NCBI GenBank assembly: GCA_037447655.1
Contig: JBBHKE010000454.1
Coordinates: forward strand, 112,826-176,825
Origin: Zygnema cylindricum
Taxonomy: Eukaryota > Streptophyta > Zygnematophyceae > Zygnematales > Zygnemataceae
Length of the DNA stretch: 64,000 nt
Direction: 5' to 3'
The notes under the pieces are model-generated. The model was not told the origin of the DNA. It made no database searches and saw nothing but the letters and a program-made list of their open reading frames with translations. The stretch's first letter is position 1; every line of letters starts with the position of its first letter. This document shows positions 11,301 through 55,509 of this stretch, one piece after another. The translations under genes and the position numbers were made by a program.

Positions 11301-12304
11301 TGTAATTATGTGACCTTTATTGGCACAAAGAATATGCAGCTTGCTTGAAGCCTCTTGGATAATTTTAAATGCCTCTATCCTTGTTAGAACAACTACCACC
11401 CTGGCAAGCAATAACTCCGATTGCCTTCACCCTTGTGAAGGCTGGACTCCCCTAATCGTAATATAAAAATAGTTTCTCTAAACCTCCAACTAGGCGATTA
11501 GTTATCAAAAGGCAAAGATGCCAGTTTTTATACAAGCTCTCTAGGAGAGAGGCCGGTACCTACCTAAAATCTCTAAGTCCTAAAACCCTTCTCTTAACCC
11601 CCTAGTACTGAGGTACGGAACGAATCAATTGACTGTACAGTATAAAAAGGTATTGTTGCCAATGTACACTCTTTACGGCCACTGATCGACATGGTCATAG
11701 AGGGAATGCTTATTACTTCTAGACTAGTCTCCTGATTTCTTGCAAATTATGCGAACTACTGATACGGTGCCACGTGGCGTCGAATGACGTGATGACTGCA
11801 AACAACTAAGACGGCCATTGGGCAATGGCAGCTTGAACGGGAGTCGTCCGATGTTAACCGACTTTTACTTCGCGCCGTTGAAATTAAGTGTTCGCACCAT
11901 TGAATTTTGTGCTATCCGTACGCTTGCAAAATACCTAACTATAACATACGTATCTATGTTACGGTCCTATAATTCTGTTAATCGACGTAGTCCACTAGTA
12001 TGTATCAAACCCTATATATCCGAGCTCAGGTACTAAACTATAGGAAAAGACGGCCGACTAGTCTGGCAGTTTGTAGGGACCAAGATCAAATCCTTCGTTC
12101 GTCATCTTTTTGCAAAGGCTGACCCCTCTATCTTCTTTTTTCTCTTCATGCATCCATGGCTCTATCTCTCTATCACCAATATTCAGTAACTACGACAAGT
12201 ATGGGGATAGGAGAGAGGGAAAGGCAAAGCGTGACTGCTGAGTATGACCTTTTAGTTTTCTACATTTTGACCTAGAAAATACAACAAAACCTCAGATTTC
12301 AACA
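11301..12304 (-). mobile_element. copia LTR (solo or truncated element)
   Basis: Read on the minus strand it begins TGTTGAAATCTGAGG and ends at TGTAATTATGTG (plus strand). It carries the family order: terminal hairpin remnant, CCTTCAC/GTGAAGG hairpin, GTAC cluster, tRNA-like segment (about 12030-12090, GATCAAATCC B-box) and the CAGTAACTACGACAAGT loop hairpin (12147-12235). To its right CTCCCCTTATTTTCTAG (polypurine tract complement) and about 45 bp of pol 3' end remain before the sequence breaks off at 12350. Confidence 0.75.
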
Positions 12305-18827: not shown

Positions 18828-19148
18828 CGTAATTCTCTGACCTCCATCGAGACACAAAATATGCAGTTTCTTTGAAGCCTCTAGGATAATTTTAAACTCC
18901 TCCCTTTTTGTTAGAACAATTGTCACCTTGGCAAGCAAAGATTTTGATTGCCTTCACTCCTTGAATGTAAGACTTAAGCCTAAAACAATTTGTTTTGTCA
19001 AAACGCTGAACCATGATTAATTATCAAAAAGCAAAGATGCCAGTTTTTACAAGTTCTCTAGGAGAGGCGAATACCTACCTAAAATAATAAGTACCGTAAC
19101 TACTCTCTAATCCCTTAGTATTAAGGTACGGAACTAATCAAATGAGTA
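18828..19148 (-). repeat. 5' LTR of E2, right part in element sense
   Basis: It starts CGTAATTCTCTGACC, where relatives have TGYAATTNTGTG. It continues through the array region until E3 begins at 19149. The target copy GAGTA is at 19144-19148. It is continued at 26652. Confidence 0.8.
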
Positions 19149-20168
19149 TGGAACTCTTAGACCTCCATAGGTCCTCAGGTAAGAAGACTTTAAGATAACC
19201 CAACCCTTTGTGTTTCAGCAAGGATAACTGCCATCTTGGAAGACAAAACTCTTACCACCTTACCCTAGAAACAAGAGCTCCAGGTTGATAGCAAAAAAGA
19301 ATCTGAATTTGCTCCTTGAGCAGTAAGTGGAGGGTCATAGTTGACCTTTGTATAGAAGCCTCTTGGGAGAGGGCCTATCTACCAATTTTTTAAGTCCTAT
19401 CTCTTCTAAAACTCTATCTACCGACGTTCGACACCAATTATATTACTTGTCGTACCAGTACAGTGCCGGTGGATTTTTGTACGCACATTGTAGGACATAG
19501 CCAAAGCCAACATATGTTATATCCGATTTGTTTCCGTAATCCTGAGATGCCAAATCCAATGTCATGATTACCGTGTCATCCGATGTATTATGCCCACAAA
19601 CCGCTGAAATCCTCTTCTGCGATCTCGGCATTCATTACGGCCGTTTGATTAAATGCAGTTTTCAATCTTAGCTGTCATAAATAAATTTGCGGTATTCGTT
19701 TCGCTATCGAAAAAAATGCACGGTACTTGTTTCTTCTCCGTACCTTAATCCGTATTTTATATAACCGAATCTATGTATTCAGTAAATAGTTAGCGTTTAA
19801 TGAATTAGTCGATATGGAAACATTTATAGATTTATCAAACCCTATATGACCTAACACTAGTTTTAGACTAAACGACTAAAGCTACCGGCTATCGACAGTT
19901 TGATTGAAGGTAGCTACGAGGATCAAATCCTGGTGGTGAATGGTACTCTTTTAGTAAATAAACTAATTTACTACCCGTATATGAACTAATCTACTACCCG
20001 TAAATCTCTGGATAGCATAGCAGCCATGGCTGTAGCTTCCTCTCCAACTTTCACTAACTTCAACAAGTGTGGTAGTTGAAGAGAGGAGTTAGAGGCAGAT
20101 TGCCTCGACTTCTTTTCTACATTATATTTTAGACATAGAAAACATTAAAAGAACCATCAATTTCTACA
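19149..20168 (-). repeat. 3' LTR of E3
   Basis: 1020 bp, beginning TGGAACTCTTAGACC and ending ATCAATTTCTACA on the plus strand. It carries the GTAC cluster, a tRNA-like segment near 19870-19950 (GATCAAATCC) and the loop hairpin near 20040-20090. It borders the polypurine tract complement CTCCCCTTATTTTCTAG. Confidence 0.85.
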
Positions 20169-20181
20169 CTCCCCTTATTTT

Positions 20182-21974
20182 CTAGTCACTCTTTAATTTC
20201 AGACCACACTTCTCCCTGCAAAAAATTAGCCTAGGGAAAGGCACAGGTTTGGTCATCATATCTGCTACCATCTCTCTCTCTGGTCTGTACTCTAAACTGA
20301 TTATTTTGTTTTGTACTTTCTCTCTAATAAAGCTTAATCTAATGTCCATGTGTTTGGATTTAATATGATGTTTAGGATTGGCAAAAATAGCGATTGCTGC
20401 ATGATTATCAGAAAAACTTTTATGCACACCACTCCTAAGGTAACCAAGCTCACCAAGCTCACCAAGCAAAGATTTGACACACATCAATTCTTTTATAGCA
20501 GAGCAAGAGGCCATATTCTCAGCCTTTTGGTGGACTGAGCAATAACCTTTTGCTGTTTGCTACTCCAACAACAAGCCCCATCACCCACATATAATACATA
20601 TCCAAAAATACATCTCCTCATCGGAGCATCACCATAACTAGCATCACTCCAAGTAGTGATGTCAGTATTCTCCCCACCCAAATGCAACCATAGATCCCTA
20701 GTTCCTATCAAGTATCTAAGAACTCTCTTAGCTGCCTCCTAATCCCTCTTAGTGGGAGCATTTAGACTTCTACTCAGCACTCCTACAGCTGCAGCTAAAT
20801 CCGGCCGGGTACAATTCATAAAATAGATTAGACTTCCCACTACTTGTTTGTAAGGAATAGTCTGCATGAACTTCTGTTCTTCAGGAGATAATTCCTCGTC
20901 TAAGACTATGACTCCTCCTTCCTCACTCCCCTCACTTCCCTTCTTCAACTCCATTGGAGTTGTATAACTATTAGCTTTATCCATTTGAATTTTTTCAAGC
21001 ATGTTCCTTATTGCTTCTTTTTGAGTCAATCTTATAATTTTTCTTTTTCGGTCTCTGTCTACTTGAATTCCCAAAATATATTTTGCTTCCCCCATATCCT
21101 TCATTTCAAATCTCCCCTTAAGATTGGTTTTGAGTTTATTAAATTTTACCATTGATTTACTTAAAACAAGCAAATCATCAACATAAATTGCAATAAATAT
21201 AACACCTTCCTCATATTCAAAAATATAGATTGAGTGATCTGAGCTGATCCGGATATATCCCAGGCTGGTAAGAAACTCATCAAATTTCTTATTCCATTGT
21301 CGAGGCGCATGTTTCAAACTGTAAAGAGATTTAATCCGCCGGCATACCTTACTCTCCTCTCCTTCCTCCACAAATCTTTCGGGTTGTCGTATGAAGATCT
21401 CCTCTTCCAATTCTCCATGCAAAAAGGCTGTCTTGATGTTCATTTGGTGCACCTCTATGTCTTTCGCTGCTGCCCTATTTAGAAGTATGTGGACGGAGGG
21501 AAATCTGATGACCGGGGCAAAGGTATCCTCGTAGTCGATTCCTTCTTTCTGTGTAAATCCTTTTGCCACTAATCGAGCTTTCTAACGCTCAATGGTGTTA
21601 TCTAGGTTCAGTTTTAATTTGAAAACCCACTTACAATCGATTGGTTTTCGGTTAGGTGGACAATCCACCATCTCCCAATTATCGGCTACCATAATTGAGG
21701 CCATCTCCTCATTGATGGCTGTCTTCCACCGGTTCCTTTCTGGACAAGTCAGCGCCTCTCCATAAGTCTGAGGTTCATCTTGATGAGATAGTTTTGTTAC
21801 CTTGTTATTAAACTGTTTTTCTAGCAATCTTTTGCTACTTTTTTTACCTCCCTCAAAATTTGTGGCCGGAATAGATGGTTCTCGTGGGTTTTTTTGAACA
21901 ATCTCGGCTTCTCCCCTATCCGTTGATTCCAAATCAATTTCCACCACATCTTTTGCTTCGGGTAGAGTTGTCAC
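20182..21974 (-). pseudogene. E3 reverse transcriptase (276 codons open) and RNase H
   Basis: The best-preserved pol in the window. A single open frame at 20739-21569 starts MAKGFTQKEGIDYEDTFAPV and contains KTAFLHGELEEEIFIRQPE, LKHAPRQWNKKFDEFL, the catalytic FIAIYVDDLLVLSKS and GEAKYILGIQVDRDRKRKI, through the SLIYFMNCTRPDLAAA box. This is a near-complete Ty1/copia RT. RNase H follows in other frames (WLHLGGENTDITTWSDASYG, 20493-20711; KELMCVKSLLGELG and DNHAAIAIFANPKHH, 20182-20514), ending at the TAG next to the polypurine tract. The integrase-RT linker is at 21582-21974. Function is lost because the upstream frames are interrupted. Confidence 0.9.
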
Positions 21975-23126: not shown

Positions 23127-24211
23127 TCATTTCCTAGTGCTACTATCAAAACCCTTATCATCTAATAAAGACGTAGAGATGAGGTTTTTGTTCAGCTCCG
23201 GAATAATCAATACATCGGAGAATGTAACTATGGATGTCTTTCCTTGTACTAACACTTTTAGATGTACCGATCCTACAAGAGTAGTAGTGACTATCCTCCC
23301 ATCCTCGTACTCTATCTCTAAGGTGGGAATCTTTCTTATCTTAGTGAACAGGTGCCTATCCTTACACATGTGCATTGAGGCACCTGAATCTACAATCTAG
23401 CCTGCTTTAGCTTTCAATCCATTAAAAGCACATTTTTGCTTTGGTGGAATTTCGACCTCGTTTTTGGCTTCCAACTCCTCACCTAATAGGAGTTCATCGT
23501 CCTCGTCCTCGGATTCCGCCTCATGTACATGTGTCACAAGGGTTTTTTTTTATTTCCTCTCGAGGGTCCAGCGGTCTGCCCCCCATTTAACGGAAGCTCG
23601 GTTAACTTAGTGCATTCATGCATATAGTGCCCCGATTTCTTACAAAAATGACACAAACCCATGGGAGTCGTTGGTCCGAACTCCTCGGTTTGATTTTTCT
23701 GCCGCTCCCCTCGATAATTTCTAACCTGTTTCTTGGAATCATTGTTCCTCCAATCGGTCCCAGCTGCCAAGGCCTGCCCACTCTCTCCTCCCATTCAGAT
23801 CTCAATCGTATTATCTCGAACGATAATCATTCCTACCACTGAGTTCCATATCCACCTTGAGTTTGGCAAGTCCTGCACACGGTTGACTATGTTCTCGAAC
23901 TCATCTGGTAACTTCATCAATAAACAGTTGACCTTTTCCTTTTCACTAAATTCTTTTCCAACACTCTCTAGCTCCATGAAAAGTGTAGCAAGCTCATTGC
24001 AAAAATCCAACATCTTCCCCCGTTTGTATATATACTCATTAATTTTCTGATCAGCCAACTGTTGTTGCTTAATCGTACCACTTCGGTACATCCCTATGAG
24101 AGCCATCCAAATATCGGATGCCCTTTCTACCTGCAAATGAGAACATGCAAGCTCTTGAGTAAGGTGGCGGAGGATGAAGTGCTTTGCCGCCTGAAATTCT
24201 GTGTCCTCCAT
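23127..24211 (-). pseudogene. E3 gag-protease, fused to an LTR start codon
   Basis: The open frame at 23795-24211 begins MEDTEFQ, then AAKHFILRHLTQELACSHLQ. The first residues come from the inserted LTR (24191 onward), whose terminal ATG reads in frame into this gag. The capsid-like region is followed by the knuckle CHFCKKSGHYMHEC (about 23620-23665) and the protease IVDSGASMHMCKD (23127-23400). The Trp normally before IVDSG is a TAG stop here. Confidence 0.85.
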
Positions 24212-25209
24212 TGGACTACAGAATACAAGAAGCCTCTAGATTGTATTTAACTAACCCACTTTAAGCCACGACCACTGCTGCCCAAGAAGGCAAAATGACA
24301 ATTTGACTGCACCCCTGTGCACCGTGGACTCCTCTGAGTCTGTAGCAAAAAGAATCACTGAAAACGGCCAACCAGCCGATAAGTTATGAGGCACTAAAAA
24401 TGCCATTTTGTACAAACTCTCAAAGGGGGAGGTGACTACCTACCAAAATTTTCTAAGTCCTGATTCCTTCTAATATTTTCTAATAAGTGAAGTACGGACC
24501 AATCAAATTACTGTACTGTACCAAAAAGTACTACTGCCGGTGTACCTTTTGTACGGCCTATGTACGACAAGGCTATTAAGTGGACGCTTGTCTGCTTTTT
24601 ACTAGTCCGTACATTCCTCGGAATTCCTATGACCGAATGTCATTTCTCCACTTGGCTCCAAGTCATGCCACGTCACAAAACGCCAAGGTGACCACTTCGG
24701 GATTTCGGCGATGACGTGCGCTGTCGGATTCGTAATGAGACGTAATCTTAACCGTTATAATTACTTGCGAGATATTTGTTTCGCTTTCAAACAAATGCGA
24801 GGTATTCATTTTGAAGTGATGTCGTACTAAAACTGTATCTATGCACGCCGTATCTTGTTTTAGTAAAATTGATTTCTTAGTTCCTAAATGTATATATATC
24901 TATCATACTCTATAACACTTAGCATTGGTCCTAGTCTAGTAGGATAAAGCTGACCGCTATCGACCAACTTGACGAACCGCAGGTTCCGGGTTCAAATCCC
25001 GGGTCCGTCAGGACTATTTTTAGTAACCTACTAAAAATAACTGCTTGTTGAAGTAAGGCAGCCATGGATCAACCACCTTCTATATCCTTCAGTAACTACA
25101 ACAAGTATGGGGGCTAGAGAAAGGAGGTGGAGGCAGGCTGTCTGTTCTTTTCTTTTTTCCTAACATATCTAAACCTAGAATATAGTATAGAAATCTATGA
25201 ATTTCAACA
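24191..25209 (-). mobile_element. solo copia LTR inserted in E3 gag
   Basis: 1019 bp, from TGAAATTCTGTG to TTTCAACA. The gag sequence continues on both sides. It carries the terminal hairpin (ATTCTGTG / the pairing arm ACAGAAT), the TGCAC-CCCT-GTGCA hairpin (24308-24321), CGGC/GCCG and GGCA/TGCC hairpins, a GTAC cluster, a tRNA-like module (24938-25010) and the loop hairpin at 25062-25140. No clean 5-bp duplication was found, perhaps because of a small deletion at the left junction. Confidence 0.8.
24938..25010 (+). ncRNA. tRNA-like module, antisense within LTR
   Basis: The sequence shows an A-box-like TAGGATAAAGCTGACCG, a perfect T-arm (CCGGG, loop TTCAAAT, CCCGG at 24986-25002) and a GTCCGTCA 3' end. 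A run of five T follows at 25017-25021, as expected for a Pol III terminator. The acceptor stem does not pair convincingly, so this is a tRNA-like promoter unit, not a clear tRNA gene. Equivalent segments lie at the same place in nearly all related LTRs. Confidence 0.65.
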
Positions 25210-25360: not shown

Positions 25361-25691
25361 TACAATAGTTTAAATAGTAATGAAACCCTATATCTCCTAA
25401 CGGACTTCTACGACAGACTGGTTAGAGCTAACGGCTACGCCGCGCTCTGCCGGTCGGGGGTTCGAGTCCTGCCGGACTCAATCTTTTGTTGAGAGTGGCT
25501 TAAGCCACTCTTTTGTCCTTCCTATGGAGTTGAGGCAGCCATGGCTCCATTGCTCTCTCTCTCTCTCTCCTTCAGTGACTACAACAAGTATGGGGGCGAG
25601 AGAGAGAGAAGAGGTAGAGGCAAGCTGCCTACATTTTCTTTTCTAATAAATTTAGACCTAGAAAATATACTAAAAACTACTTATTTCAACA
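25361..25691 (-). repeat. LTR fragment of another copia subfamily
   Basis: It starts in mid-LTR and ends TATTTCAACA. It includes a tRNA-like unit, a perfect AGAGTGGCTT/AAGCCACTCT hairpin and the CAGTGACTACAACAAGT loop hairpin with (CT)n/(AG)n arms. It closely resembles the LTRs at 56646-57638 and, inverted, 46348-47357. Confidence 0.75.
25410..25480 (+). ncRNA. tRNA-like module, antisense within LTR
   Basis: Contains an A-box-like ACTGGTTAGAGCTAACGG and a consensus-like B-box GGTTCGAGTCC, with GACTCAATCTTTT downstream. The T-stem has one mismatch and the acceptor stem is not convincing. Near-identical units occur at 57361-57430 and, inverted, 46561-46632. Confidence 0.65.
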
Positions 25692-26646
25692 AATAACTGC
25701 CACCCTGGCAGACAAAAACTCTTACCACCTTCACCCCTATGAAGGTAAGACTCCCCCAAGTTGATAGCAAAAAGAATATTTGAAAGTGCTCCCTTGAGCA
25801 GTAAGTTATGGAGGGTCAAATTTGACCTTTTGTACAAGAGCTCTCTTAGAGAGAGGGTCCTCTCTACCAAATTTTTCTAAGTCCTATCTCTCTTTAAAAC
25901 TCTATCTACTGACGTACGGCACCGATCATATTACTGTGTCGTACAAAAAGGTATAGGTGCTGGTGTACTTTCTGTACGGACATTGTACGACATGGCCAAA
26001 AAGTTGACACATGTCATATCCGGATTTGTTTGCGTAATCGTTGGAGATGCCATAATCCAATGTCATGGTGCCACGTGTCATCTGATGTGGCGATAACCAC
26101 AAACCGCCGAAATCTTCTTCCGGGATTTCGACATTCATTGCGGCCGTCCAATTAAATGCAGATTTCAATCTTAGCCGTTAAAATAAATGCGCGGTATTCG
26201 TTTGGCTTTCGAAACAAATGCGTGGTACTTATTTCTTCTCCGTACCTTAAGCCGTATTTTATATAACCGAATCTATGTATCCAGTAAATAGTTACCGTTT
26301 AATGAATTAGTCGACGTGGAAACATTTATAGATTTATCAAACCCTATATGACCTAACATTAGTCTTAGACTAAACGGCTAAAGCTACCCCCTATCGGCAG
26401 TTTGATTGAAGGTAGGTCCAGGATCATATCCTGGTTTCAACAGGTACTCTTTTAGTATATCAACTAATCTACTACCCGTAAATCTTTGGATAGCATAGGT
26501 AGCCATGGCTCTAGCTTCCTCTCTAACTTTTAGTGACTGCAACAAGTGTGGGAGTTGAAGAGAGGAGTTAGAGGCAGATTGCCTTGGCTTCTTTTCTACA
26601 TTATATTTTAGTCTTAGAAAATACTAAAAAACCATCAATTTCTACG
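25692..26646 (-). repeat. 5' LTR of E3, truncated at its inner end
   Basis: The first ~105 bp, holding the terminal hairpin and gag ATG, are missing. The rest includes the CTTCACCCCTATGAAG hairpin, the GTAC cluster, a tRNA-like segment (T-arm CCAGG/CCTGG at 26418-26434) and the loop hairpin at 26505-26590. It ends TTTCTACG before the target copy GAGTA. Confidence 0.8.
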
Positions 26647-26651: not shown

Positions 26652-27331
26652 CAGTAGAAGAAGGTACTTCTGCGGATGTACTTTCTATACAACCACTGTA
26701 CGACATGGATATAGAGAGAACGCTTGTTACCTCTAGACTTGTCTCCCGATTTCTTGCAAATTCAACCAACTATTGATAGGGTGTCATGTGGAGTCCGATG
26801 ACGTGACAATCGCAAACAGTGAAGGTGGCCATTCTGCAATGACCGCTTGAATTGGGGCCGTACGACGTTAACTTGCTTTTATTTCGCGCCGTTGAAAGTA
26901 AGTGTTCGCACCATTAAATTTTATGCTATTCGTGTGCTTGCCAAATATCTAACTGTATATATGTTATTATCCTACAATTCCGTTAATCAACTTAGTCCAC
27001 TAATATCTATTTTTATGTTTATCAAACCTTATATATCCCAGCATAGGTATTAGAGAAATGGATAAGACGACTGGCTAGCATGGTAGTCTATAGAGATCAG
27101 GATCAAATCGCTATCTTTTTGGAAGCTCGTTTTCTTCTTCTGGCTGCTCACGCAGCCACAACTCAATCTCTCCTCTAACTCTTTCTCACTAGTCTTTAGT
27201 GACTACGACAAGTATGAGGACTGGAGAGGTGGAAAGGCAGAGCGGGAAAGGCAGGGCCTAAATGCCAAGTAAGACCTTTTAGTTTTCCACATTCAGACCT
27301 AGAAAATAGGACCAAACCTCAGATTTGAACA
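26652..27331 (-). repeat. 5' LTR of E2, left part in element sense
   Basis: It continues the LTR cut at 19148 and resembles the LTR at 11301-12304: the GTAC cluster, CTCTAGACTTGTCTCC, a tRNA-like segment near 27060-27120 and the loop hairpin at 27150-27250. It ends GATTTGAACA. Confidence 0.8.
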
Positions 27332-27341: not shown

Positions 27342-28381
27342 TGCAACTTTGACACCTCCATTGGTCCTTAGAGTAGCCAGCTCACTAGATGCCCTTAGGA
27401 TAACCTTTACCCCTTTGAGTTTGATCAATACCAATTGTCACCTTAACAAACACTAGACTAAACTAATTTCATTTTTGTGAAGACAAGACTCCCGTAAAAA
27501 GAATCACTTAATTTGCTCCCTTGAGCAGTGAGTTATGGATGGTCAAAGTTGACCTTTTGTATAGATGCGCTCTATGAGAGAGGTAACTACCTAAGAATTT
27601 TCAAAGTCTTAATCCCCTCTCTGAATCCCCTACTACTGTTGTACCTAGCCAATCCTACGACTATAAAGTATAAGAAGGCATAGGTGTTGCTGTACTTCTT
27701 GTACGACCATGGTACGGCATGGTCGTTTCCCTCACTTTTGTCAGTTCTTGAGCTTTAGTTTCTCCCTCCCCAATCTCCGCTGTCCACTAGTAGGCTGCCA
27801 AGTGTCATTCGGTGACATCTCCTCCATAAACCGCCAAAACGACCACTCCGGTGCCTCGGCTCCATTGTGAGCCTTCCGATCAACATCAACATATAATTCT
27901 GTCCGTTTAAATTGAATGTTTTTGTCATTTTGTGCGACTTGATTTCTTTTAGTGCGTCCACGGTAGTTCCATGTATTTTCCGAGCCGTAACTCGTTAAAT
28001 GAATTTCGTTTCGTGTACGTGTATAAATACTTATCGTACCCTATATATCCTAGGATGGGTCCTAAACTATAGGATAAAGCTAACGGCTACCAGCTACTTT
28101 GACAAACGGTAGGTACCACGATCAAGTCCTGATTTCGGTTGCCCTTTTGATAAATCTCGTCGAATCTGTTCCCTGTCCTCATGAGAAGTTCGGCAATTAT
28201 TCCTTGTTCTCTTGAGAAGCCTTGGCAGCCATGGCTCTAACTCCCTCTTTAGTCTTTAGTGACTACAAGTGTGGGGACTTGAGAATGGAGTAAGTGGTAG
28301 TCTGCCTTTGCTTCTTTACTATTTTTATTTTACACTATTCAGACTTAGAAATACCAAACTGAAACCATTAATATCTATACA
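27342..28381 (-). mobile_element. solo copia LTR E4
   Basis: 1040 bp from TGCAACTTTGACACCTCC to TATCTATACA, with all family modules including a tRNA-like segment (about 28065-28145, GATCAAGTCC) and a loop hairpin with a shortened loop (AGTGACTACAAGTGTGGG, near 28260). No matching target duplication was found. Confidence 0.75.
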
Positions 28382-28499: not shown

Positions 28500-29536
28500 T
28501 GCAATTCTGTGTCCTCCATTGGACCACAGAATACAGGAAGCCTCTACATAGTATTTAACTAACCCACTTGAAGCCACAACCACTGCTGTCCAGGAAGACA
28601 AAATGACAGTTTAACTGCACCCCTATGCAGCCTGGACTCCCCTGAGTCTGTAGCAAAAAGAATCACTGAAAACGGCCAACCAGCCGATAAGTTATGAGGC
28701 AGTAAAAATGCCAATTTGTACAAACTCTCAAAGGGAGAGGTGACTACCTACCAAAATTTTCTAAGTCCTGATTCCCTCTAATAACTTCTATCTACTAAAG
28801 TACGGACCAATCAGATTACTGTATCGTACCAAAAAGTACTACTGCAGGTGTACCTTTTGTACGGCCTATGTACGGCAAGGCTATTAAGCGGACGCGTGTC
28901 TACATTTCATTCGTCTGTACATTCCTTGGAATTCCCATGACCGAATGTCATCTCTCCACGTGGCTCCAGGTCATGCCACGTCACAAAACGCCAAAGTGAC
29001 AATTCTGGGATTTCGGCGATGATGTGCGCCGTTGGATTTTCAGCGAGACGCAATCTTAGCCGTTATAAATACTTGCGCGATATTTGTTTCACTATCGAAA
29101 CAAAATGTGTGATATCCGTTTTGAAATAGAATCGTACTTCGTACTTTCATAAATCTGTATCTATGCATGCCATATACAGTTTTAGTTAAATGGATTTGTT
29201 CCTCCCTAAATTTATATATATCTATCACATACTATAGCATTTAGCATTGGTTGTAGTCTAATAGGATAAAGCTGACTGCTATCGGCCAACTTGACGAACG
29301 GCAGGTTCCGGGATCAAATCCCGTTTCCGTCAAGGATATTTTTAGTAACCCACTAGAAATAACTGCATGTTGAACTAAGGCAGCCATGGATCAACCACCC
29401 TCTCTATCTTTCAGTGACTACAACAAGTATGGGGGCTAGAGAGAGGAGGTGGAGGCAGGCTGCTCGTCCTTTTCTTTTCTTTTATCCTAACATATTTAAA
29501 CCTAGAAAATACTCTAGAAATTTATTAATGTCAACA
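28500..29536 (-). mobile_element. solo copia LTR E5
   Basis: 1037 bp from TGCAATTCTGTG to AATGTCAACA, closely resembling 24191-25209. It keeps the perfect ATTCTGTG/CACAGAAT terminal hairpin, the CGGC/GCCG hairpin, the GTAC cluster, the tRNA-like segment (about 29262-29330, GATCAAATCCCG then ATTTTT) and the loop hairpin at 29383-29462. No clean target duplication is seen. Confidence 0.78.
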
Positions 29537-30078: not shown

Positions 30079-31380
30079 TGAAATTCTATGGGCTCCATTG
30101 CCAGACAGAATTCACAGATCAAAAAGAAGCTAATCTAGATAGTGCCGACTCCAACTCGATATATATCCAAAATGACTGACACCTTGACAATCAAAACCCC
30201 ATTAAAGCTTCACCCTTGTGAATCAATACTTTCTGTGTGCTCAGTTCCACCACAGAATGCAAAGTTAGAATATGTGATTTGGATACATTCTCCCACTTTG
30301 ACTTTCCCTTAGAAATGCAGCCACCTAGGTAGGCAAAAACTCTGACCGACTACACCCTTGTGTAGCCTGAACTCCCCTGAGTCCGCATAAAAAAGAATCA
30401 CTGAAAATGGCCAAGTAAATTGATAGTTATGGCTGGCCAAAGTTTGCCCTTTATACAGATGCTCTCTAGGAGAGAGGTGGCTACCTACCCGAAATATTCT
30501 AAGTCGTAAACCCCTCTCTAAACCCTCTATTACTGAGGTACAGACCAATCATATTGCCGTATAGTACTTAAAGGTACAGGTGTCGCTGTACCTTTTGTAC
30601 GCCCATCGTACGACATGGCTAAAAAAGTCAACACATGTCCTACTCGGATTCGCTCTTATAATCCTTGAAATTCTTGCTTCCAAATCTTATCTCTCCACGT
30701 GGTGCCAGGTCATGCCACGTCAAAAAAACGGTACCGTATAAGAAAGTACAGGTGCCGCAGTACTTTTGTACGAAGAGTGTACGATATTGCCATAATGTGA
30801 CATTTGTCACATCCAGATTTGTTGTGTTCCGTTCTGGAGATTCCGCAACTTGTAAGATGTCACCACATGTCATCCGGAGTGGTGACGTCCGCAAACCGCC
30901 AAATTATCCTTTCGCGTAGCCGACGCTAATCATGGCCGTCCGATTTATTTCGGCATTTCATACGGATTGTCGAAACAAATGTCCGTACTATTTGTTTAGT
31001 CCGGTACTTAAAAGTACAACTGTTTCTATGCCATATAAACGTAATCCATTTAAATGAAAAACCCTAATAAATTCTATTTAAATATCTACCAAACCCTAGC
31101 ACTAGTCTGAGACTAAACGGACAAAGCTGACGGCTACTGGTTACTTGACGGACGGTAGGTACTAGGATCAATTCCTGGGTTCGTCAAATACCTTTTTGGT
31201 AAGTCTACCAAATATACACCCTTTCTCGATAGAGAGCCAAGGCAGCCATGGCTCTAGCTCCCTCTCCAGCCTTCAATGACTATAACAAGTGTGGGGGCTT
31301 GGATAAGGGAGTTAGAGGCAGACTGCCTCTGCCCTTTTTCCTATACTAAACCAGACCTAGAAAATACTCAAATATCAACA
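30079..31380 (-). repeat. 3' LTR of miniaturised copia element E6
   Basis: 1302 bp from TGAAATTCTATGGG to AAATATCAACA. The extra length comes partly from a diverged direct duplication of the GTAC-cluster region (about 30545-30725 against 30730-30905). It carries the terminal hairpin (AATTCTATGGG / CAGAATT), a tRNA-like segment (about 31115-31190; T-arm CTAGG/CCTGG) and the loop hairpin at 31246-31330. CTCCCCTTATTTTCTAG follows. Confidence 0.75.
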
Positions 31381-33396: not shown

Positions 33397-34473
33397 TGCA
33401 ACTTTGAGACCTCCATAGGACCTCAAAGTAAGCAGCTCACTCGAAGCCTCTAGGATAACCCTGACCCCTTTGTCTTTCAGCACGAATAACTACCACCCTG
33501 GAAAACAAAAACTTTGATCACCTTTACTTATGTGAAGAGAAGACTCCACTGAGTCGATAGCAAAAAGAATCTATGAGTTTGCTCCCCTGAGCAGTACGTT
33601 ATGGAGGGTCAAAGTTGACCTTTGTACATAAGCTCTCTTGGAGAGCGGGTCCTATCTACCAATTTTTCTAAGTCTTATCTCTCTCACAAACTCAATCTAC
33701 TGATGTACGGAACTAATCATCTTACTCTTCCGTAGACAGAAGTACAGCTGCTGATGTACTTTCTGTACGGATGTTGTACGACATGGCCTAAATGTCGACA
33801 CGTGGTATAACCAGATTTGCTCCCTTAATCCCTGGAGATACCGCGATTCAATGTCATTGTGCCACGTGTCATCCGATGTGGCAATGACCAAAAACCGCCG
33901 AAATCCTCTTCCGTGATCTCGACATTCATTCCGGCCGTCTGATTTAAATGCACAATAAATCATAGCCGTAATAAATACTTGCACGGTATTGGTTTCACTA
34001 TCGAAACAAATGCGCGGTACTTGTTTCTTGTCCGTACATTAATCCATACTTTTACATAAGCAAATATATGTATCCTGTAAATAGTGTATGTTAAATGAAT
34101 TTGTTAGCGTAGAAATGTTTATGTAATTATCAAACCGTATATAATATAACACTCGTCATAGACTAAATGGATAAAGCTACCGTCTACCGGCAGCTCTAAC
34201 GGCCGGTAGGTACTAGGATCAAATCCTAGTTGCGACAGCTCTACTTTTAGTAAATTTGTAAATCAACTAATTTACTACTATAAATCAACTAATCTACTAC
34301 CCGTAAATCTCAGGATAACATAGGCAACCATGGCTCTAGCTTCATCTCCGACTTTCAGTGACTGCAACAAGTGTGGGAGTTGAAGTGAGAAGTAAGAGGC
34401 AGACGGCCTCGGCTTCTTTTCTGTATTTTATTTTAGACTTATAAAATACTAAACTAACCATCAATTTTTTACA
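33397..34473 (-). repeat. 3' LTR of E7
   Basis: It starts TGCAACTTTGAGACC and ends ATTTTTTACA (plus strand). It contains the TGCTC-CCCT-GAGCA hairpin, GGTCAAAGTTGACC and the GTAC cluster. The tRNA-like segment (about 34158-34235) has a perfect T-arm (CTAGG/CCTAG) and an 8-bp anticodon-side stem. The loop hairpin is at 34328-34410. Confidence 0.9.
34158..34236 (+). ncRNA. tRNA-like module, antisense within E7 3' LTR
   Basis: An A-box-like AATGGATAAAGCTACCG is followed by CTACCGGC (34184-34191) pairing perfectly with GCCGGTAG (34202-34209), then the T-arm CTAGG-ATCAAAT-CCTAG (34213-34229). CTCTACTTTT follows. The counterpart in the 5' LTR (39590-39665) has CCAGG/CCTTG at the T-arm. Confidence 0.65.
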
Positions 34474-37458: not shown

Positions 37459-38842
37459 ATATTGTCGTAGAGATGAGGTTTTTGTTTAGCTCCGGTATAA
37501 ACAATACATCGGAGAATGTAACTATGTATGTCTTTCCTTCTACCAACACTTTCAGATCTACCGATCGTACAAGAGTAGTAGTGACTATCCTCCCATCCTC
37601 GTATTCTATCTCTACTGTGGGAATCTTTCTTATGTTAGTGAACAGGTGTTTATCCTTACACATGTGCATGGAGGCACCTGAATCTACAATCCAGCTTGCT
37701 TCACTTTTCAATCCACCGAAAGCACATTTCTGCTTTCGTGGAATTTCTACCTCGTTTTTCGCTTCCAACTCCTCATCCAATAAGAGCTCATTGTCCTAGT
37801 CTTCGGATTCCACCTCAAGTACTTGTGTCACAAGGGCCTTTTTCTTTCCTCTAAGGGTTCCATCGGTCTGCCCCTCCTTTAACCGAAGCTCGGTTTGCTT
37901 AGTGCACTCCGCCATATAGTGCCCTGGTTTCTTACAGAAATGACATAAACCCTTGGGAGCCTTTGGTCCGATCTCGTCAGTCTGATTTTTATGCTCCCCC
38001 CCTCCGTAATTTTTGACCGGTCTCCGGGAATCCCGCTTCCTCCAGTTGGTCCCAGCTGCCAAGGCTTGCCCACTCTTTCCTCCCCTTTTGGATCTCAATT
38101 GTATTCTCCCAAACGAGAATCATTCCTACCACTGAGTTCCATATCCATCTTGAGTCCGGCAAGTCCTGCACACGGTTGACTTTGTTCTCGAACACATCAG
38201 GTAACTTCATCAGTAGATAGTTTACCTTTTCTTCTCATTAAAATCTTTTCCATAACTCTCTAGCTCCATAGAAAGTGTAGCAAGCTCATTGCAAAAATCC
38301 AACATCTCCCCCCCTTTGTATACATACTCTTTAACATTCTGATCAGCCAACTGATACTGCTAAATCCTACCACTTCGGTACATCTTTTTTAGAGCCATCC
38401 AAAGATCGGATACCCTTTCTACCTGCAAATGAGGACATGCAAGTCCTTGAGTAAGATGGCGGAGGATGAAGTGCTTTGCCGCCATATTATTAAAGTCTAA
38501 GGTATCAGTATCATTCTCCTCGTTCCTCAGAATAGGTGACATGAATGCCGAACCAGTTGCTATTGGTGTGGTCGTCTCCTTCTCCTTTCTTTTGTCCACC
38601 ACCTCTCCTTCTTTTGTCTCCTTCATTGAAGATGGTTCTGCATCTCTAGTGAATTTGCCTCTTGTAAACCATAGAGATATCCGAAGACTGGATGGACGCC
38701 TCACCTGTCCACTCACTATTCCCCAAAATCGTTTCTCACATAGAGCTCCTGTCATCATACTTTCCAAGTATATGAAGCCAGCTCCATTGAATATGGGCAC
38801 CCTAGATGGTGGGCATATAACGTGCAATTGTGAGACTTCCAT
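37442..38842 (-). pseudogene. E7 gag and protease, gag starting inside the LTR
   Basis: An open frame of 160 codons (38360-38842) starts MEVSQLHVICPPSRVPIFNG. The ATG lies inside the LTR, and the frame crosses the LTR edge and primer site. The capsid-like region continues through RHLTQGLACPHLQVERVSDL. The knuckle CHFCKKPGHYMAEC is at about 37900-37950 and the protease WIVDSGASMHMCKDKHLF in the frame at 37442-37780. Frameshifts lie near 38240 and 37800. Confidence 0.88.
38808..38821 (-). promoter_or_regulatory. E7 primer-binding site (half tRNA-iMet)
   Basis: The minus strand reads GTTATATGCCCACC one base after the LTR end. It matches 12 of 14 bases of the complement of the initiator tRNA-Met anticodon stem-loop (GTTATGGGCCCACC), not the tRNA 3' end. 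This is the half-tRNA priming arrangement known for Drosophila copia and yeast Ty5. It overlaps the gag reading frame. Confidence 0.75.
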
Positions 38843-39897
38843 AGGACCTCAGAGTAAGCAGCTCACACGAAGCCTCTAGGATAACCCTAACCCCTTTGTC
38901 TTTCAACACGAATAACTGCCACCCTGGCAAACAAAAACTCTGATCACCTCCATCCATGTGAAGGCAAGACTCCCCTGAGTCGATAGCAAAAAAAATCTCT
39001 GAGTTTGCTCCCCTGAGCAGTAAGTTATGGAGGGTCAAAGTTGACCTTTTGTATAGAAGCTCTCTAGGAGAGAGGGTCCTATCTTTCACTTTTTCTTAGT
39101 CCTATCTCTCTCACAAACTCTATCTACTGATGTACGAAACTAATCATCTTACTCTTCCGTACGGAGAAGTACAGCTGCTAGTGTACTTCTGTACGGATAC
39201 TGTACGACATGGCCAAAATGTCGACACGTGGTATATCTGGATTTTCTCCCTTAATCCTTGGAGATGCCAGGATCTAATGTAATTTTGCCACATGTCATCC
39301 GATGTGGGGATGACCAAAAACCGCCGAAATCCTCTTCCATGATCTCGGCATTCATTCTGAACGTCTGATTTAAATGTAGATTAAATTGTAGCCGTAGTAA
39401 ATACTTGCGCGGTATTGGTTTCACTATCGAAAAAAATGCGCGGTACTTGTTTCTTGTCCGTACATTAATCCGTTCTTTTACATAAGCAAATCTATGTATC
39501 CTGTAAATAGTTTCCGTTAAATGAATTTGTTAGCGTAGAAATTGTTATGTAATTATCAAACCGTATATAATCTAACACTTGTCATAGACTAAATGGATAG
39601 ACCTACCGGCTACCGGCAGCTTTGACGGTCAGTAGGTACCAGGATCAAATCCTTGTTCTGACAGCTCTACTTTTAGTAAATTAGTAAATCAACTAATTTA
39701 CCACTGTAAATCAACTAATCTACTACCCGTAAATCTCAAGATAGTATAGGCAGCCATGGCTCTAGCTTCATCTCTGACTTTCAGTAACTGCAACAAGTGT
39801 GGGAGTTGAAGAGAGAAGTTAGAGGCAGACGGCCTCGGCTTCTTTTCTGTATTTAATTTAGACCTAGAAAATACTAAACTAATCATCAATTTCTACA
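38823..39897 (-). repeat. 5' LTR of E7
   Basis: It runs from TGCAATTGTGAGAC to CAATTTCTACA. Hairpins seen are GACTC-CCCT-GAGTC (38968-38981), TGCTC-CCCT-GAGCA (39006-39019), GGTCAAAGTTGACC and CTCTC-TAG-GAGAG. They are followed by the GTAC cluster, the tRNA-like segment and the loop hairpin (39757-39840). Confidence 0.9.
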
Positions 39898-46347: not shown

Positions 46348-47357
46348 TGTTGAAATTACTAGTTTTATGTGGTATTTTCTCGGTCAGAATTTAGTACAAA
46401 TGGAAAAAAGAAATAGGCGGACAGCCTGCCTCCGCCTCCTCTCTCTACCCACCATACTTATCGTAGTCACTGAGGGATGGAGAGGGTGGCTGAGCCATGG
46501 CTGTCCTAGCTTAAGCACGTTGGGCTAAAGAGTGACTTATGTCACTCTCAACAAAAGGTTGAGTCCGGCAGAACTCGAACTTCCGACCGGTAGAGCGTGG
46601 CTTAGCCGTTAGCTCTAACCAGTTTGTTGTAGAAGTCCGTTAGCATATGATAGGTTTGATATTTATTTAAACAGTGTTACAACCATGAATTCGATTAATG
46701 GGATTGCGAACGAAAGAACATGGAACCAAGTATTATATAGTGCGAACATTATCTCGCACGAAAACAAATGAATCGGACATTTGTTTTTACGGCGGACATT
46801 CAATATCGAATCTAATCCGACGACGTACATCGATGCCGAGATCGCGGAATGGTCACTTTTGGCGTTTATGGACGTGGCATGACGTGGCGCCACGCGGAGG
46901 GATGGCATTTGGTCGCAAAAATTTGTGCGAACATAAGGACAAGTGAAAAGTGGACACGCGTCCACTTAATGTCGTTGCCGTACATGAGCCGTACAAAAAG
47001 TACATCGGCCATAGCACTTTTCTGTACCCTACAGTGATCTGATTGGTTCATACTTCAATAGATAAGGGTTGTGAGAGGGATTTAGGACTTATAGAATTTG
47101 GTAGATAGGAACCTCTCTCCCTTTGAGAGTTTGTATAAACTTGGCATTTTTGCCGACTCATAACTTATCGACTGGTTGGCCGTTTTCAGTGATTCTTGTT
47201 GCTACGGACTCAGGGGAGTCCAGGCTGCACAGGGGTGCAGTCAAATTGTCAGTTTGCCCTTTTTTTGGCAGCAGTGGTTATGGCTTGAAGTGGGTTAGTT
47301 AAATACTATCTAGAGGCTTCCTGTATTCTGTAGTCTAATGGAGGACACAAAATTGCA
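46348..47357 (+). mobile_element. solo copia LTR E8 (plus sense)
   Basis: 1010 bp from TGTTGAAATTACTAG to AAAATTGCA with perfect target copies CTATA (46343-46347, 47358-47362). Being in the opposite orientation, it shows the modules in element sense: loop hairpin (46425-46505), AGAGTGAC-TTAT-GTCACTCT hairpin, inverted tRNA-like unit, GTAC cluster, GCATTTTTGCC hairpin, GGACTC-AGGG-GAGTCC, TGCAC-AGGG-GTGCA and the terminal region with the gag-type ATGGAG. Confidence 0.92.
46561..46632 (-). ncRNA. tRNA-like module, antisense within E8
   Basis: Read on the minus strand: CTGGTTAGAGCTAACGG (A-box region), GTTCGAGTTCTGCCGG (B-box region), then GACTCAACCTTTTG. It is nearly the same as 25410-25480 and 57361-57430, and again antisense to the LTR. 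Confidence 0.65.
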
Positions 47358-47502: not shown

Positions 47503-48402
47503 TGTTGAAAAGAGGTAATTAATAGTTCACTTCTATAGTTAAGTTAGAATGTAAAGAGAGAGAAAGATATAACCAAAGGCACGCCATGGCTGCCGCGTCA
47601 TTTAGGAGGGAGAATGAAATAGAATGTATTTTACTATTTGTAGGAAAATACTGTCTCTAGCCGGATTTGAACCGGGGTCTACAGAATACTACTTAGACCT
47701 TAGCCTTATCCATTAAGGCACTAATGAAACGATATACGTATTACGTTTCACGCATATTTATCTATTTGTAAAACGGTCTAATTTGCAGCAGACAAACGAA
47801 AACACGCATTAATCAATTCATGCATGGAAGCGAATCGAAGCCGCATAAATACAAATGATCGGACGGCCACAATTGCAGCCGCCACCCGCAATAAACTTTC
47901 GGCGGCCTTTGGGGATAGCGTCACGCGATGCCACGTGGCACCATACTATTGGATACTGAGGAAGATGGGAGGAGGAACTATGGCTCCCGTTTTGACAGGC
48001 ATCACTTTGAAAGCCATGTCGTACAATGGTCGTACAATAAGTACAACGCCTAATGTACCTTCTTGTATTATATTGTATTTCTATTGGACTAGGGTTTAGT
48101 AGAAGGCAATCGTAAGTAGGCAGACCAGGACTTAGTGAAATTTAGGTACCTCTCTCTAAGAGAGCTTGTAACTATAAAGGTCATCTTTGACCAACCATAA
48201 CTTACTGCTCAGGGGAGCAAATTCTGTGATTCCTTTTGCGTTTGACTCAGAGGAGTCTTATCCTCACAGGGGTGATGGTGGTCAGAATATTTGTGTGCCT
48301 AGGCGGCACTTATTCAGCGGGAAAGTAGAATGGGCAAATATTATCCTAGAGGCTTTACATAGGCTGCTCATTCTCTGGGTCAATGGAGACCACATAATTG
48401 CA
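47503..48402 (+). mobile_element. solo copia LTR E9 (plus sense)
   Basis: 900 bp from TGTTGAAAAGAGG to CATAATTGCA with perfect target copies GTATG (47498-47502, 48403-48407). It is a diverged subfamily. It lacks the CAGTGACT loop hairpin but keeps TGCTC-AGGG-GAGCA, a GACTC/GAGTC hairpin and a near-CACAGGGGTG hairpin, and the best-folding tRNA-like module of the window. Confidence 0.9.
47653..47730 (-). ncRNA. tRNA-like cloverleaf within LTR E9
   Basis: 78 nt on the minus strand. The acceptor ends GTTTCAT and TAGAGAC pair at 5 of 7 positions (one G-U). A D-arm-like GCC-TTAATGGATAA-GGC follows, then a stem GGTCTA/TAGACC with an enlarged loop, then a T-arm CCGG-TTCAAAT-CCGG. TATTTTCC follows. 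It resembles a tRNA with an abnormal anticodon loop and looks like a tRNA-derived Pol III unit rather than a functional tRNA gene. Confidence 0.7.
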
Positions 48403-49145: not shown

Positions 49146-50210
49146 TGCAACTTTGAGACCTCCATAAAACCTCAGAGTAAGTAGCTCACACGAAGCCTTT
49201 AGGATAACCCTGACCCCTTTGTCTTTCAGCACGAATAACAGCCACCCTAGCAAACAAAATCTCTAACCACCTTCACCCCTGTGAAGGCAAGTCTCCCCTG
49301 AGTTGATAGCAAAAAGAATCTCCGAATTTGCTCCCTTAAGCAGTAAGTTATAGAGGGTCAAAGTTGACCTTTTGTACTGAAGCTCTCTAGGAGAGAGGGT
49401 CCTATCTACCAATTTTTCTAAGTCCTATCTCTCTCTAAAACTCTATCTATTGGTGTACGACACCAATCATATTACACTGGCGTACATAAATGTACAGCTG
49501 CCGGTGTACTTTAAGTACAGATTTTGTACGACATGGCTTAAATGTCGACACATGTCATATCCAGATTCAGTCCCGTAATTTCCAAAGATGCCGCGCTCCA
49601 ACGTAATCGTGCCATGTTTCATCCGATGTGGCGATGACCACAAACCGCCGAGAATCTCTTCCGCGATCTCGACTTTTTTTTCGGCCGTCCGATTGAATGC
49701 AAATTTCAATCGTAGCCGTCATAAATGCTGGTGCGGTATTTATTTCGTAAAAGAAACAAAATACGCAGAACTCGTTTCTTCTCTATACCGAAATCTGTAC
49801 GTTTACATAACAAGATCTATGTAACCGTCAACATCCGTCGTTAAATGAATTTTCCTACGTGTTAACATTTAAATAAATATCAAACCCTATAGTATGTATC
49901 GTAACTTCTAGACTTAACGGTTAAGGCAACTGGCTACCGGCGTTTTGACGGTCGACAGGTTCCAAGATCAAAACCTGCGATCGACATAGACCTTTTAGTA
50001 AATAAACCTACCTATTTGTAAATTAACTAATCTATTTCCCGTAAACCTATAGATAGCCTAGGTAGCCATGGCTCTAGCTTCCTCTCCAACTTCTCAGTGA
50101 CTGCAACAAGTGTGGGAGTTGGGGAGAGAAGTTAGAGGCAGACTTCCTCGGCTTCTTTCTATATTACCATTTAGATGTAGAAAATAATAAAATAACCATC
50201 GATTTCTACA
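49146..50210 (-). repeat. 3' LTR of E10
   Basis: Modules on the plus strand: terminal hairpin CTTTGAG/CTCAGAG (about 49150-49176), CTTCAC-CCCT-GTGAAG (49271-49286), a degraded GACTC-type hairpin, TGCT/AGCA (about 49330-49345), GGTCAAAGTTGACC (about 49357-49370), CTCTC/GAGAG (about 49383-49396), GTAC cluster, tRNA-like segment (about 49915-49988) and loop hairpin (50067-50150). Confidence 0.92.
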
Positions 50211-53094: not shown

Positions 53095-54476
53095 ATATAG
53101 ATGTAGAGATGAGGTTTTTGTTTAGCTCCGGTATAAACAATACATCGGAGAATGTAACTATGTATGTCTTTCCTTCTACCAACACTTTCAGATCTACCGA
53201 TCGTACAAGAGTAGTAGTGACTATCCTCCCATCCCCGTACTCTATCTCTACTGTGGGAATCTTTCTTATCTTAGTGAACTAGTGTTTATCCTTACACATG
53301 TGCATGGAGGCACCTGAATCTACAATCGAGCCTGCTTCACCTTTCAATCCACCGAAAGCACATTTATGCTTTTGTGGAATTTCTACCTCGTTTGTCCCTT
53401 CCAACTCCTCATCCTATAGGAGCTCATCGTCCTCGTCTTCGGATTCCACCTCATGTACCTGTGTCACAAAGGCCATTTTCTTTCCTCTCGGGGTTCCACG
53501 GGTCTGCCCCTCCTTTAACCGAAGCTCGGTTAGTTTAGTGCACTCCGCCATATAGTGTTATGGTTTCTTACAAAAATGACATAAACCCTTGGGAGCCCTT
53601 GGTCCGAACTCGTCAGTTTGATTTTTCTTCTCCACCCCTCCGTAATTTCCGACTGGTCTTCAGGAATCCTTGTTTCTCCAGTCGGTCCCAGCTGCCAAGG
53701 CTTGCCCACTCTTTCATCCCTTTCAGATCTCAATTGTATTCTCCCAAACGAGAATCATTCCTACCACTGAGATCCATATCCACCTTGAGTGTGGTAAGTC
53801 CTGCACACGGTTCACTATGTTCTCGAACTCATCGCGTAACTTCATTTGTAAATAGTTAACCTTTTCTTTTTCACTATAATCTTTTCCCGCACCCTCTAGC
53901 TCCATGAAGACTGTAGCAAGCTCATTGCAAAAATCCAAAATCTTCCCCCTTTTGTATGCATACTCTTTAACATTCTGATCAGCCAACTGTTGTTGCTGAA
54001 TCCTACCACTTCGGTACATCTTTTTGAGAGCCATCCAAAGATCCGATGCCCTTTCTACCTGCAAATGAGGACATGCAAGTCCTTGAGTAAGATGTTGGAG
54101 GATGAAGTGCTTTCCCGCCATATTGTTGAAGTCCCAGGTATCAGTATAATTTACCTCGTTCCTCAAAATAGGTGACATGAACCGAACCAGTTGCTATTGG
54201 TGTGGTCTTCTCCTTCTCCTTTCCTTTGTCCACCACCTCTCCTTCCTTTGTCTCCTCCGTTGAAGATGGTTCAACATCTCTATTGAATTTTCCTCTTGTA
54301 AACCCTTGAGGTATCCTAATACTGGATAGACACCTCACCCGTCCACTCACTATTCCCCAAAACCTATTTTCACATAGAGCTCCTCTCATCATACTTTCCG
54401 AGTATATGAAGCCAGCTCCATTGAATATGGGCACCCTATATGGCGGGCCCATAACGTGCAACTCTGAGACCTCCAT
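53095..54476 (-). pseudogene. E10 gag and protease, gag ATG within the LTR
   Basis: The start ATG is at 54474-54476, inside the LTR terminal hairpin loop. The frame (MEVSELHVMGPPYRVPIFNG) crosses the LTR edge and primer site without a stop. It is open as part of a 193-codon frame (54141-54722) that begins even further inside the LTR. The capsid region is at 53723-54178 (HLTQGLACPHLQVERASDLW). The knuckle CHFCKKP-HYMAEC has a stop in place of Gly (about 53545-53595). The protease IVDSGASMHMCKD is at about 53288-53326. Confidence 0.88.
54442..54455 (-). promoter_or_regulatory. E10 primer-binding site (half tRNA-iMet)
   Basis: The minus strand reads GTTATGGGCCCGCC after a one-base spacer from the LTR. 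It matches 13 of 14 bases of the complement of the initiator tRNA-Met anticodon arm, ending at the position expected if the tRNA is cut after nucleotide 39. It is the best-preserved site in the window. Confidence 0.85.
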
Positions 54477-55509
54477 AGGACCTCGTAGTAAGCAGCTCAC
54501 ACAAGCCTTTGGGATAACCCTGGCCCCTTTGTCTTTCAGCACGAATAACAGCCACCCTGGCAAACAAAAGCTTTGGCCACATACACCCTTCTGAAGGGAA
54601 GACTCCTCTGAGTCGATAGGAAAAAGAATCTCTGAATTTGCTCCCCATAGCAGTAAGTTATGGAGGGTCAAAGTTGACCTTTTGTACAAAAGCTCTCTGG
54701 GAGAGAGGGTCCTATCTACCAATTTTTCTAAGTCCTATCTCTGTGTAAAACTCGATCTACTGGTGTAGAGTACCAATCATATTACTGTGGCGTACATAAA
54801 AATACAGCTGACGGTGTACTTTATGTATGGATTTTGTGTGGCATGGCCTAAATGTCGACACATGTCATATCTGGATTCGGTCCCGTAATTCCCGGAGATG
54901 CCGCGATCCAACGTAATCGTGCCACGTGTCATCCGATGTGGCGATGACCACAAACCGCTGCTACTCTCTTCCGCAATCTCGACTTTCTTTTTGGCATTCT
55001 GATTGAATGCAAATTTCAATTGTAGCTGTCAGAAATGCTTGTGCGGTATTTGTTTCGTAAAAGAAACAAAATGCGCGGTACTCGTTTCTTATCCATACCG
55101 AAATCCGTACGTTTTCATAACGGGATCTATGTAGATGTAAACATCCGCTGTTAAATGAATTTTCTTACGTGTTAACATTTAAATTAATATCAAACCCTAT
55201 AGTATGTATCGTAACTTCTACACTTAACGGTTAAGGCTACCGGCTACCGGCGTTCACGTTCCAAGATCAAAACCTGCTATCGACATATACCTTTTAGTAA
55301 ATAAACCTACCTATCTGTAAATTAACTAATTTATTTCCTGTTAACCTCTGGATAGCCTAGGTAGCCATGGCTCTAGCTTCCTCTTCAACTTTATAGTGAC
55401 TGCAACAAGTGTGGGAGTTGGAGAGAGAAGTTAGAGGCAGACTTCCTTGACTTATTTCTAAATTCCAATTTAGACCTAGAAAATAATAAAATAACCATCG
55501 ATTTCTACA
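54457..55509 (-). repeat. 5' LTR of E10
   Basis: It has the same modules as the 3' copy. The terminal hairpin CTCTGAG/CTCAGAG is perfect (loop contains CTCCAT, the complement of ATGGAG). The tRNA-like segment is shortened (about 55215-55285), and the loop hairpin lies at 55365-55450. Confidence 0.92.

Follow-up and report, generated by a model that had tools for sequence, protein, structure and literature searches.

A candidate antisense Pol III unit and an adjoining hairpin in the U3 region of Ty1/copia LTRs

Helenus elements (Kojima 2024), as described in the part of that paper cited here, are non-autonomous TRIM elements of 311-1263 bp which carry tRNA-derived sequence in their LTRs and were proposed as TRIMp3 (PMC10886601). 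The tRNA-like part is proposed there to promote the element's own RNA, and the paper also remarks that a fair number of Repbase LTRs look like a portion of a tRNA, only TRIMs having been taken further (PMC10886601). According to the same part of the paper, Cassandra is a TRIM whose LTRs contain a 5S rRNA promoter that drives the element's own RNA (PMC10886601). For the foamy viruses BFV and SFV, the cited sections describe a Pol III pri-miRNA cassette in U3, with one or two hairpins and measured miRNAs (PMC7693620). The boxes of plant tRNA-derived SINEs, in the excerpt used here, are RRYNNRRYGG for the A-box and GGTTCGANNCC for the B-box (PMC2774510). Neither 'antisense' nor 'opposite' was found when the main text of the Helenus paper was searched for these words (PMC10886601). 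Among the open-licence papers listed in literature searches, none reports an antisense tRNA-like unit in coding LTR elements by title or abstract. To our knowledge, an antisense Pol III unit has not been known as a feature of copia elements.

The window analysed here is a stretch of 64,000 nucleotides (G000:C348:112826-176825) from a 353-Mb eukaryotic assembly. The repeats in it are Ty1/copia elements, for the most part on the - strand, and six of the nine scanned frames contain RVT_2, copia gag, Pol_BBD or SH3-like domains, among them the copia reverse transcriptase (RVT_2) frame of element 3, identified by domain scan at 20742..21581 (- strand). Relatives of the reverse transcriptase share at most 50% identity among the 120 listed of 1566, and the named ones include plants and oomycetes. 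One host exon in the window has angiosperm RHOMBOID-like 2 as its closest relative among named proteins. The assignment to Ty1/copia follows from copia pol and gag lying between LTRs that start with TG and end with CA, and from a 5-bp duplication; the copia frames between the LTRs are broken in the window copies. The LTRs are about 1 kb long, the LTR-to-LTR spacing is 5.3-5.4 kb, and whole elements measure about 6.4-6.5 kb.

Element 1 is bounded by a 3′ LTR at 33397..34473 and a 5′ LTR at 38823..39897 (both - strand, 90.0% identity), and no 5-bp duplication was seen for it. Element 2 has its 3′ LTR at 49146..50210 and its 5′ LTR at 54457..55505 (both - strand, 87.9% identity), and is flanked by the 5-bp duplication GTATG (+ strand). 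It also has a polypurine tract, and its primer-binding site (PBS; 54442..54456, - strand) is complementary to the anticodon arm of what we take to be the initiator tRNA-Met. This element was inserted in a tandem repeat of ~42 bp around TATATAGTATGCGTACTATACGGGTTTTTT, which occupies 48401-49145, 55502-56290 and 60335-60530 of the window. Element 3 has a 3′ LTR at 19148-20168 and a 5′ LTR remnant at 25684-26641. In addition, a solo LTR of family B (24192..25209, 1,018 bp, - strand as the element's strand) is apparently inserted inside another copia element. It matches seven loci on other contigs over 863-1020 columns at 90.9-93.4% identity, six of them near full-length.

Motif scan and alignment detected 18 tRNA-like units in the window, 16 on the + strand and two on the - strand, and a model search gave one extra truncated unit at 13849. 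Since the copia frames are on the - strand, the + strand units are antisense to the elements. The units are located ~190-330 nt from the LTR 5′ end (in element orientation) on the opposite strand, and therefore in U3, with the order AT-rich TATCAAACCCTATAT block, A-box-like block, B-box and T-run. The solo LTR encloses the unit from which an earlier note on this DNA had started; the description given there for 24938-25010 matches the sequence, and antisense units with an A-box-like block, a B-box and a T-run do recur at a fixed LTR site, as the note had claimed. This family B unit (24921..25022, + strand) contains an A-box-like block, the B-box GGTTCAAATCC, the T-arm CCGGG/CCCGG and TTTTT, and a second copy is found at 29243..29344 (+ strand). 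The TATA-like block that the note had seen upstream is present and conserved as TATCAAACCCTATAT, but it may be the element's sense TATA box or Pol II promoter and not a Pol III signal. Another block, GCCACGTGTC with the G-box-like core CACGTG (33861-33870 and homologous positions), is among the most conserved LTR windows and is possibly part of the sense Pol II promoter.

Both LTRs of elements 1 to 3 carry a unit on the + strand: at 34148..34250 (3′ LTR; 82.8 bits for a unit that belongs to the training set of the search model) and 39574..39676 (5′ LTR) in element 1, at 49897..49998 (3′ LTR) and 55208..55297 (5′ LTR, with a shorter box-to-box distance than in its partner) in element 2, and at 19852..19953 (3′ LTR) and 26353..26454 (5′ LTR remnant) in element 3. 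A main-family LTR (62705-63730) has its unit at 63453..63554, LTRs of other subfamilies have theirs at 31098..31198, 28053..28152 and 58187..58284 (the last without TTTT nearby), and divergent subfamilies have theirs at 12024..12116 and, weakly, at 27041..27133, all on the + strand. Family C units lie at 25396..25492 (+ strand, LTR fragment 25365-25691), with the A block GACAGACTGGTTAGAGC and the exact B-box GGTTCGAGTCC, at 57345..57441 (+ strand, LTR 56646-57638) and at 46548..46644 (- strand, inverted LTR 46344-47357). A short palindrome of the GAGTGGCTTAAGCCACTC type is located directly past the first T-run of family C units (window 25490-25520 and 57440-57470, and L021:8775-8805). The remaining - strand unit, of the G type (47643..47730), has a predicted cloverleaf and a sub-threshold Rfam tRNA match at 47653-47727, and its LTR is homologous to the main family on the R/U5 side. 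Between families B (24192-24730, 28500-29037) and C (46344-47357, 56646-57638), the R/U5 side is ~70-81% identical whereas the U3 units are only 41-50% alike, which has the appearance of a module exchange.

A sequence model built from the LTR units matched 42 unit contexts. All of them are joined by LTR homology, and with the unit masked, 42/42 formed one group at 60 bits and 40/42 at 100 bits. The unit regions themselves are ~40-50% identical between families, with a minimum of 39-50% among subfamilies. Twenty 10-kb stretches (200 kb) contained 21 units at E 1e-4 or better, ten of the stretches being positive; the density is only indicative, because the stretches were sampled from 12 long contigs. 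The 17-mer of the family C A block occurs 919 times in the genome, versus twice for the reversed control, and among 100 listed sites there are 15 same-strand pairs 5,285-5,384 bases apart, as expected of the two LTRs of one element. Two LTRs were found to hold tandem unit pairs ~170 nt apart (L026:3069 and 3242, - strand; L011:7808 and 7978, + strand), in each case a G-type (tRNA-Arg-like) unit, then a second unit, then the hairpin described below. At G000:C2526:25449-27098 the exact family B T-arm occurs four times on one strand within 1.7 kb, at a spacing of 459-699 bases; this cluster is a possible tandem or shortened LTR array.

The resemblance to tRNA was scored in 39 of the 42 contexts, two tandem second units and one cut-off context being omitted; the same set served for the conservation, A+B, folding-window and SINE-box tests. 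Every copy descends from a common source, so that the counts are not independent of one another. Templates were taken from the same genome (20 of its 63 listed tRNA matches). Averaged over the 39 aligned LTRs (effective number 29), resemblance to their D-arms plus B-boxes was highest on the antisense strand at the unit, with z 5.7, a value to be read with the caveat that the contexts were collected with a unit-built model. Of the two runner-up peaks, one (z 3.4) is the unit's near-palindromic T-arm read from the opposite strand; the other has z 3.3. The SINE A-box was present with at most one mismatch anywhere in the 26-start search range in 33/39 units (control 23%) and exactly in 11/39 (control 2.6%), and the SINE B-box GGTTCGANNCC with at most two mismatches in 25/39 (control 6.7%) and with at most one in 8/39 (control 1%). 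TTTT within 30 nt of the B-box end was found in 38 of the 41 units counted out of 42 contexts, against 22% of random LTR positions, and in 37 of those 38 the T-run lies 13-18 nt past the B-box, where a tRNA would be expected to end. Among the genome's own tRNA genes only 10/20 show a TTTT that close to the B-box, which was counted against the Pol III reading. When a textbook A+B score is used, the unit ranks first among the pairs in 29/39 LTRs; only 6/39 single LTRs beat all 30 shuffles, and three units score nothing. The earlier note had made its reading depend on the boxes being better conserved than the neighbouring LTR, and here the outcome is divided: among LTR windows the B-box ranks at the 91st percentile and the D-arm 3′ half at the 97th, but the A-box 5′ half reaches only the 47th, and several LTR blocks elsewhere are equally or more conserved. 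In the main family the B-box has GGATC in place of GGTTC.

tRNA calling, which had been proposed as a check, yielded nothing over threshold: in the window there was no Rfam tRNA at the gathering score and no ARAGORN tRNA. The best case is the G-type unit at 47643-47730 (- strand), which folds as a cloverleaf (z -2.25) and in whose 116-base stretch Rfam tRNA was the sole match among 4,227 families, with 18.7 bits versus a cut-off of 29; this match was absent from the whole-window Rfam search up to E 10. The D-arm of this unit, GTGCCTTAATGGATAAGGC, is similar to that of the genome's own tRNA-Arg, GTGGCCTAATGGATAAGGC. Judged by the z 5.7 peak, the SINE boxes, the T-run, the Rfam match and the joint occurrence with the hairpin described below, the tRNA-type, antisense, Pol III-promoter-like reading of the units holds at the level of sequence; a Pol III role is likely, and the unit probably originated from a tRNA.

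Three other identities were considered and rejected. A functional tRNA was dismissed on the lack of Rfam and ARAGORN calls over threshold in the window. The unit is not a copied primer tRNA, as the PBS lies elsewhere and matches the initiator anticodon arm while the unit is in U3; and for 5S or other Rfam families there were sub-threshold matches only.

Does the unit itself have a conserved structure? The three compensated T-arms quoted in the earlier note exist, but compensation is not general, with 76.2% of T-stem cells paired over the 18 window units. RNAalifold gave no common structure for the 27 of 39 units used for it and for covariation (family C, G-type and other divergent units omitted). 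In a structure of T-stem plus 9-bp outer stem, which was read off those same aligned sequences, 77.0% of cells pair in these 27 units, and the covariation score was reached by 0/500 shuffles. Single folding produced a cloverleaf in one of nine units, and in none of the four among them that come from the two LTRs with tandem pairs (L026, L011). Neither strand is favoured by the unit stems (G-U 24 versus A-C 20) or by the unit MFE, the antisense strand being more stable in 17/39. In mean folding z, the unit ranks lowest of the seven LTR windows compared (-1.77 antisense, -1.52 sense).

The interval from the unit to the LTR 5′ end contains a long hairpin whose loop, CAGTGACTNCAACAAGTNTGGG, is conserved, a co-conserved feature that the earlier note had missed. 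The hairpin segment lies at 34305..34428 (+ strand; loop motif 34356-34377) in element 1 and at 50044..50167 (+ strand; antisense MFE -55.1 kcal/mol) in element 2, where it has a sub-threshold Rfam match to a plant miRNA precursor at 50053-50151. The loop motif alone, with at most five mismatches, occurs at 40 sites in 274 kb, compared with 0.3 matches per strand in letter-shuffled sequence, and a unit is located upstream on the same strand in 37/40; these sites were found independently of the unit, yet the motif was first spotted in unit-bearing window LTRs. Outside the window a unit is upstream of 21/23 sites. The three sites without a unit are window 14345, L009:2701 and L012:741. The distance from unit to loop is 67-228 nt, usually 67-108 nt.

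The consensus fold of 12 hairpin copies has -25.35 kcal/mol with favourable covariation as antisense RNA, versus -11.33 kcal/mol with unfavourable covariation as sense RNA, the two alignments being built separately. Among single hairpins the antisense strand is more stable in 33/37, a count whose p-value should not be taken at face value since the copies share descent and are not independent tests; the mean z is -2.7 antisense versus -2.1 sense. At five other LTR offsets, the antisense strand is more stable in 10, 20, 10, 24 and 9 of 39. TTTT occurs within 58 nt past the hairpin in 30/37 copies, a count made without a control. The hairpin, co-conserved with the unit and with a fold better kept in the antisense RNA, is the best sign that an antisense RNA matters.

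As in Helenus, the tRNA-like sequence here has A and B boxes, resides in LTRs and is unlikely to be a working tRNA, and there are 5-bp duplications, which the cited part of the Helenus paper gives for plants and fungi (PMC10886601). The tRNA-derived LTR sequence that defines Helenus has its counterpart here, with single tRNA calls below threshold. Unlike the short, non-coding Helenus elements, those described here are copia-coding and measure about 6.4-6.5 kb together with their ~1-kb LTRs, and the unit is on the strand opposite to the element. What is new, relative to the cited part of that literature, is therefore the occurrence in coding copia elements, the antisense orientation and the hairpin; tRNA-like LTR sequences as such were known from small non-autonomous elements (Helenus). 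The same genome seems to hold the sense, non-autonomous arrangement too: at L009:about 2780-3370 (G000:C137) a putatively Helenus-like small element has two short LTRs with the ends TGTTGGAT and TCTAACA, as read by eye, and an ARAGORN tRNA-Gln(CTG) in sense orientation in each LTR; the region enclosed by the LTRs contains the PBS TGGTATCGGAGC and a G-rich PPT.

The LTRs also share with Cassandra a Pol III promoter, predicted in our case, and differ from it in that the Rfam search of the window gave no 5S rRNA match. The earlier suggestion of a tRNA counterpart of Cassandra had already been published in the form of Helenus, going by the cited part of that paper (PMC10886601), while the antisense arrangement in coding elements is distinct. 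The combination of a Pol III-type promoter with a hairpin in U3 recalls the foamy-virus cassette, but that cassette belongs to animal retroviruses, whereas the present one, predicted from sequence, is antisense, has a tRNA-like body and resides in a copia group of a plant-like genome. SINEs form free-standing copies with a tail and a target-site duplication; no free-standing repeat was seen among the 42 contexts, all of them LTR relatives homologous outside the unit (the search model was itself built from LTR units). In RVT_2, copia gag, Pol_BBD and SH3-like domains, the initiator-arm PBS, the polypurine tract and the 5-bp duplication, the elements resemble Ty1/copia.

The feature is real, widespread and co-conserved. 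Its site and strand, the A- and B-box-like blocks, the T-run, the co-conservation of the hairpin and the better antisense fold of the hairpin are established by sequence. We hold with moderate confidence that a large Ty1/copia group carries in U3 an antisense, tRNA-derived type-2 Pol III unit with an adjoining hairpin, which would limit or tune the element. TFIIIC and TFIIIB would bind the A and B boxes, and Pol III would start ~10-15 nt before the A block and make an antisense RNA of ~100 nt ending at the first T-run, with occasional read-through past the hairpin giving an RNA of ~280 nt. Such RNAs would be complementary to the U3 sequence with which the element's own mRNA ends, and the arrangement suggests that the elements produce short antisense RNAs of their own. 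The element would most likely be limited or tuned by interference at the LTR promoter, by pairing with the U3 of its mRNA, or by small RNAs, and the bound factors may additionally hold the LTR open.

The main rival is a role at the DNA level only, in which the B-box block, next to the element's own Pol II promoter, binds TFIIIC, or TFIIIC together with TFIIIB, and thereby forms a boundary or anchors open chromatin, any RNA being incidental. The B-box and the D-arm 3′ half are indeed the better-conserved parts of the unit, which adjoins the conserved TATA-like block, a possible sense Pol II promoter; however, the A block, the T-run and the spacing are also kept, and the adjoining hairpin folds better as antisense RNA, so that we consider this explanation unlikely. 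A second rival is that unit and hairpin form a structured element at the 3′ terminus of the genomic RNA or serve as sense promoter DNA, the tRNA likeness being convergent or historical. U3 does belong to the 3′ end of the sense RNA, the hairpin is stable in that orientation too (mean z -2.1), the unit stems are strand-neutral, and many LTR blocks beyond the unit are equally conserved. Yet the consensus hairpin fold is far weaker on the sense strand (in alignments made separately), and the tRNA score peak, the T-run and the Rfam tRNA match are all antisense; we regard a sense-strand function as quite unlikely.

A third rival is that a tRNA gene or SINE once landed in an ancestral LTR and is only being inherited, and the degeneracy of the units would suit such a neutral relic, as would the SINE2 origin proposed for Helenus LTRs in the cited part of that paper (PMC10886601). 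On the other hand, promoter blocks, spacing and T-run persist at 39-50% unit-region identity between subfamilies, and families B and C combine R/U5 regions ~70-81% identical with U3 units of only 41-50%; we give this explanation little credence. Ty1 and Ty3 use Pol III genes for integration, and an LTR-bound Pol III complex could likewise draw in the same elements, giving rise to nested elements. Nested and adjacent LTRs are frequent in the window, but the insertion points read here, few as these events are, do not lie near units: the family B solo LTR interrupts a gag region, and element 2 the 42-bp tandem repeat. Such a landing pad strikes us as highly improbable.

The antisense Pol III unit, our preferred reading, can also be stated in a wider form: a two-part Pol III ncRNA gene, with a tRNA-like body and a pre-miRNA-like hairpin of fixed loop, would lie antisense in U3 throughout a whole superfamily of copia elements as a deeply conserved, self-made regulator, a plant reverse-orientation counterpart of the foamy-virus U3 RNAs. 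We put this forward tentatively and think it rather doubtful. The present LTRs are a warning that tRNA-like LTR sequences are not limited to small TRIM elements. If the units are transcribed, at about one unit per 10 kb in the sampled stretches, these LTRs would be among the genome's most numerous sets of Pol III sites, coding LTR elements would be tied to Pol III control, and these copia elements would offer a natural case of an element with its own antisense regulator.
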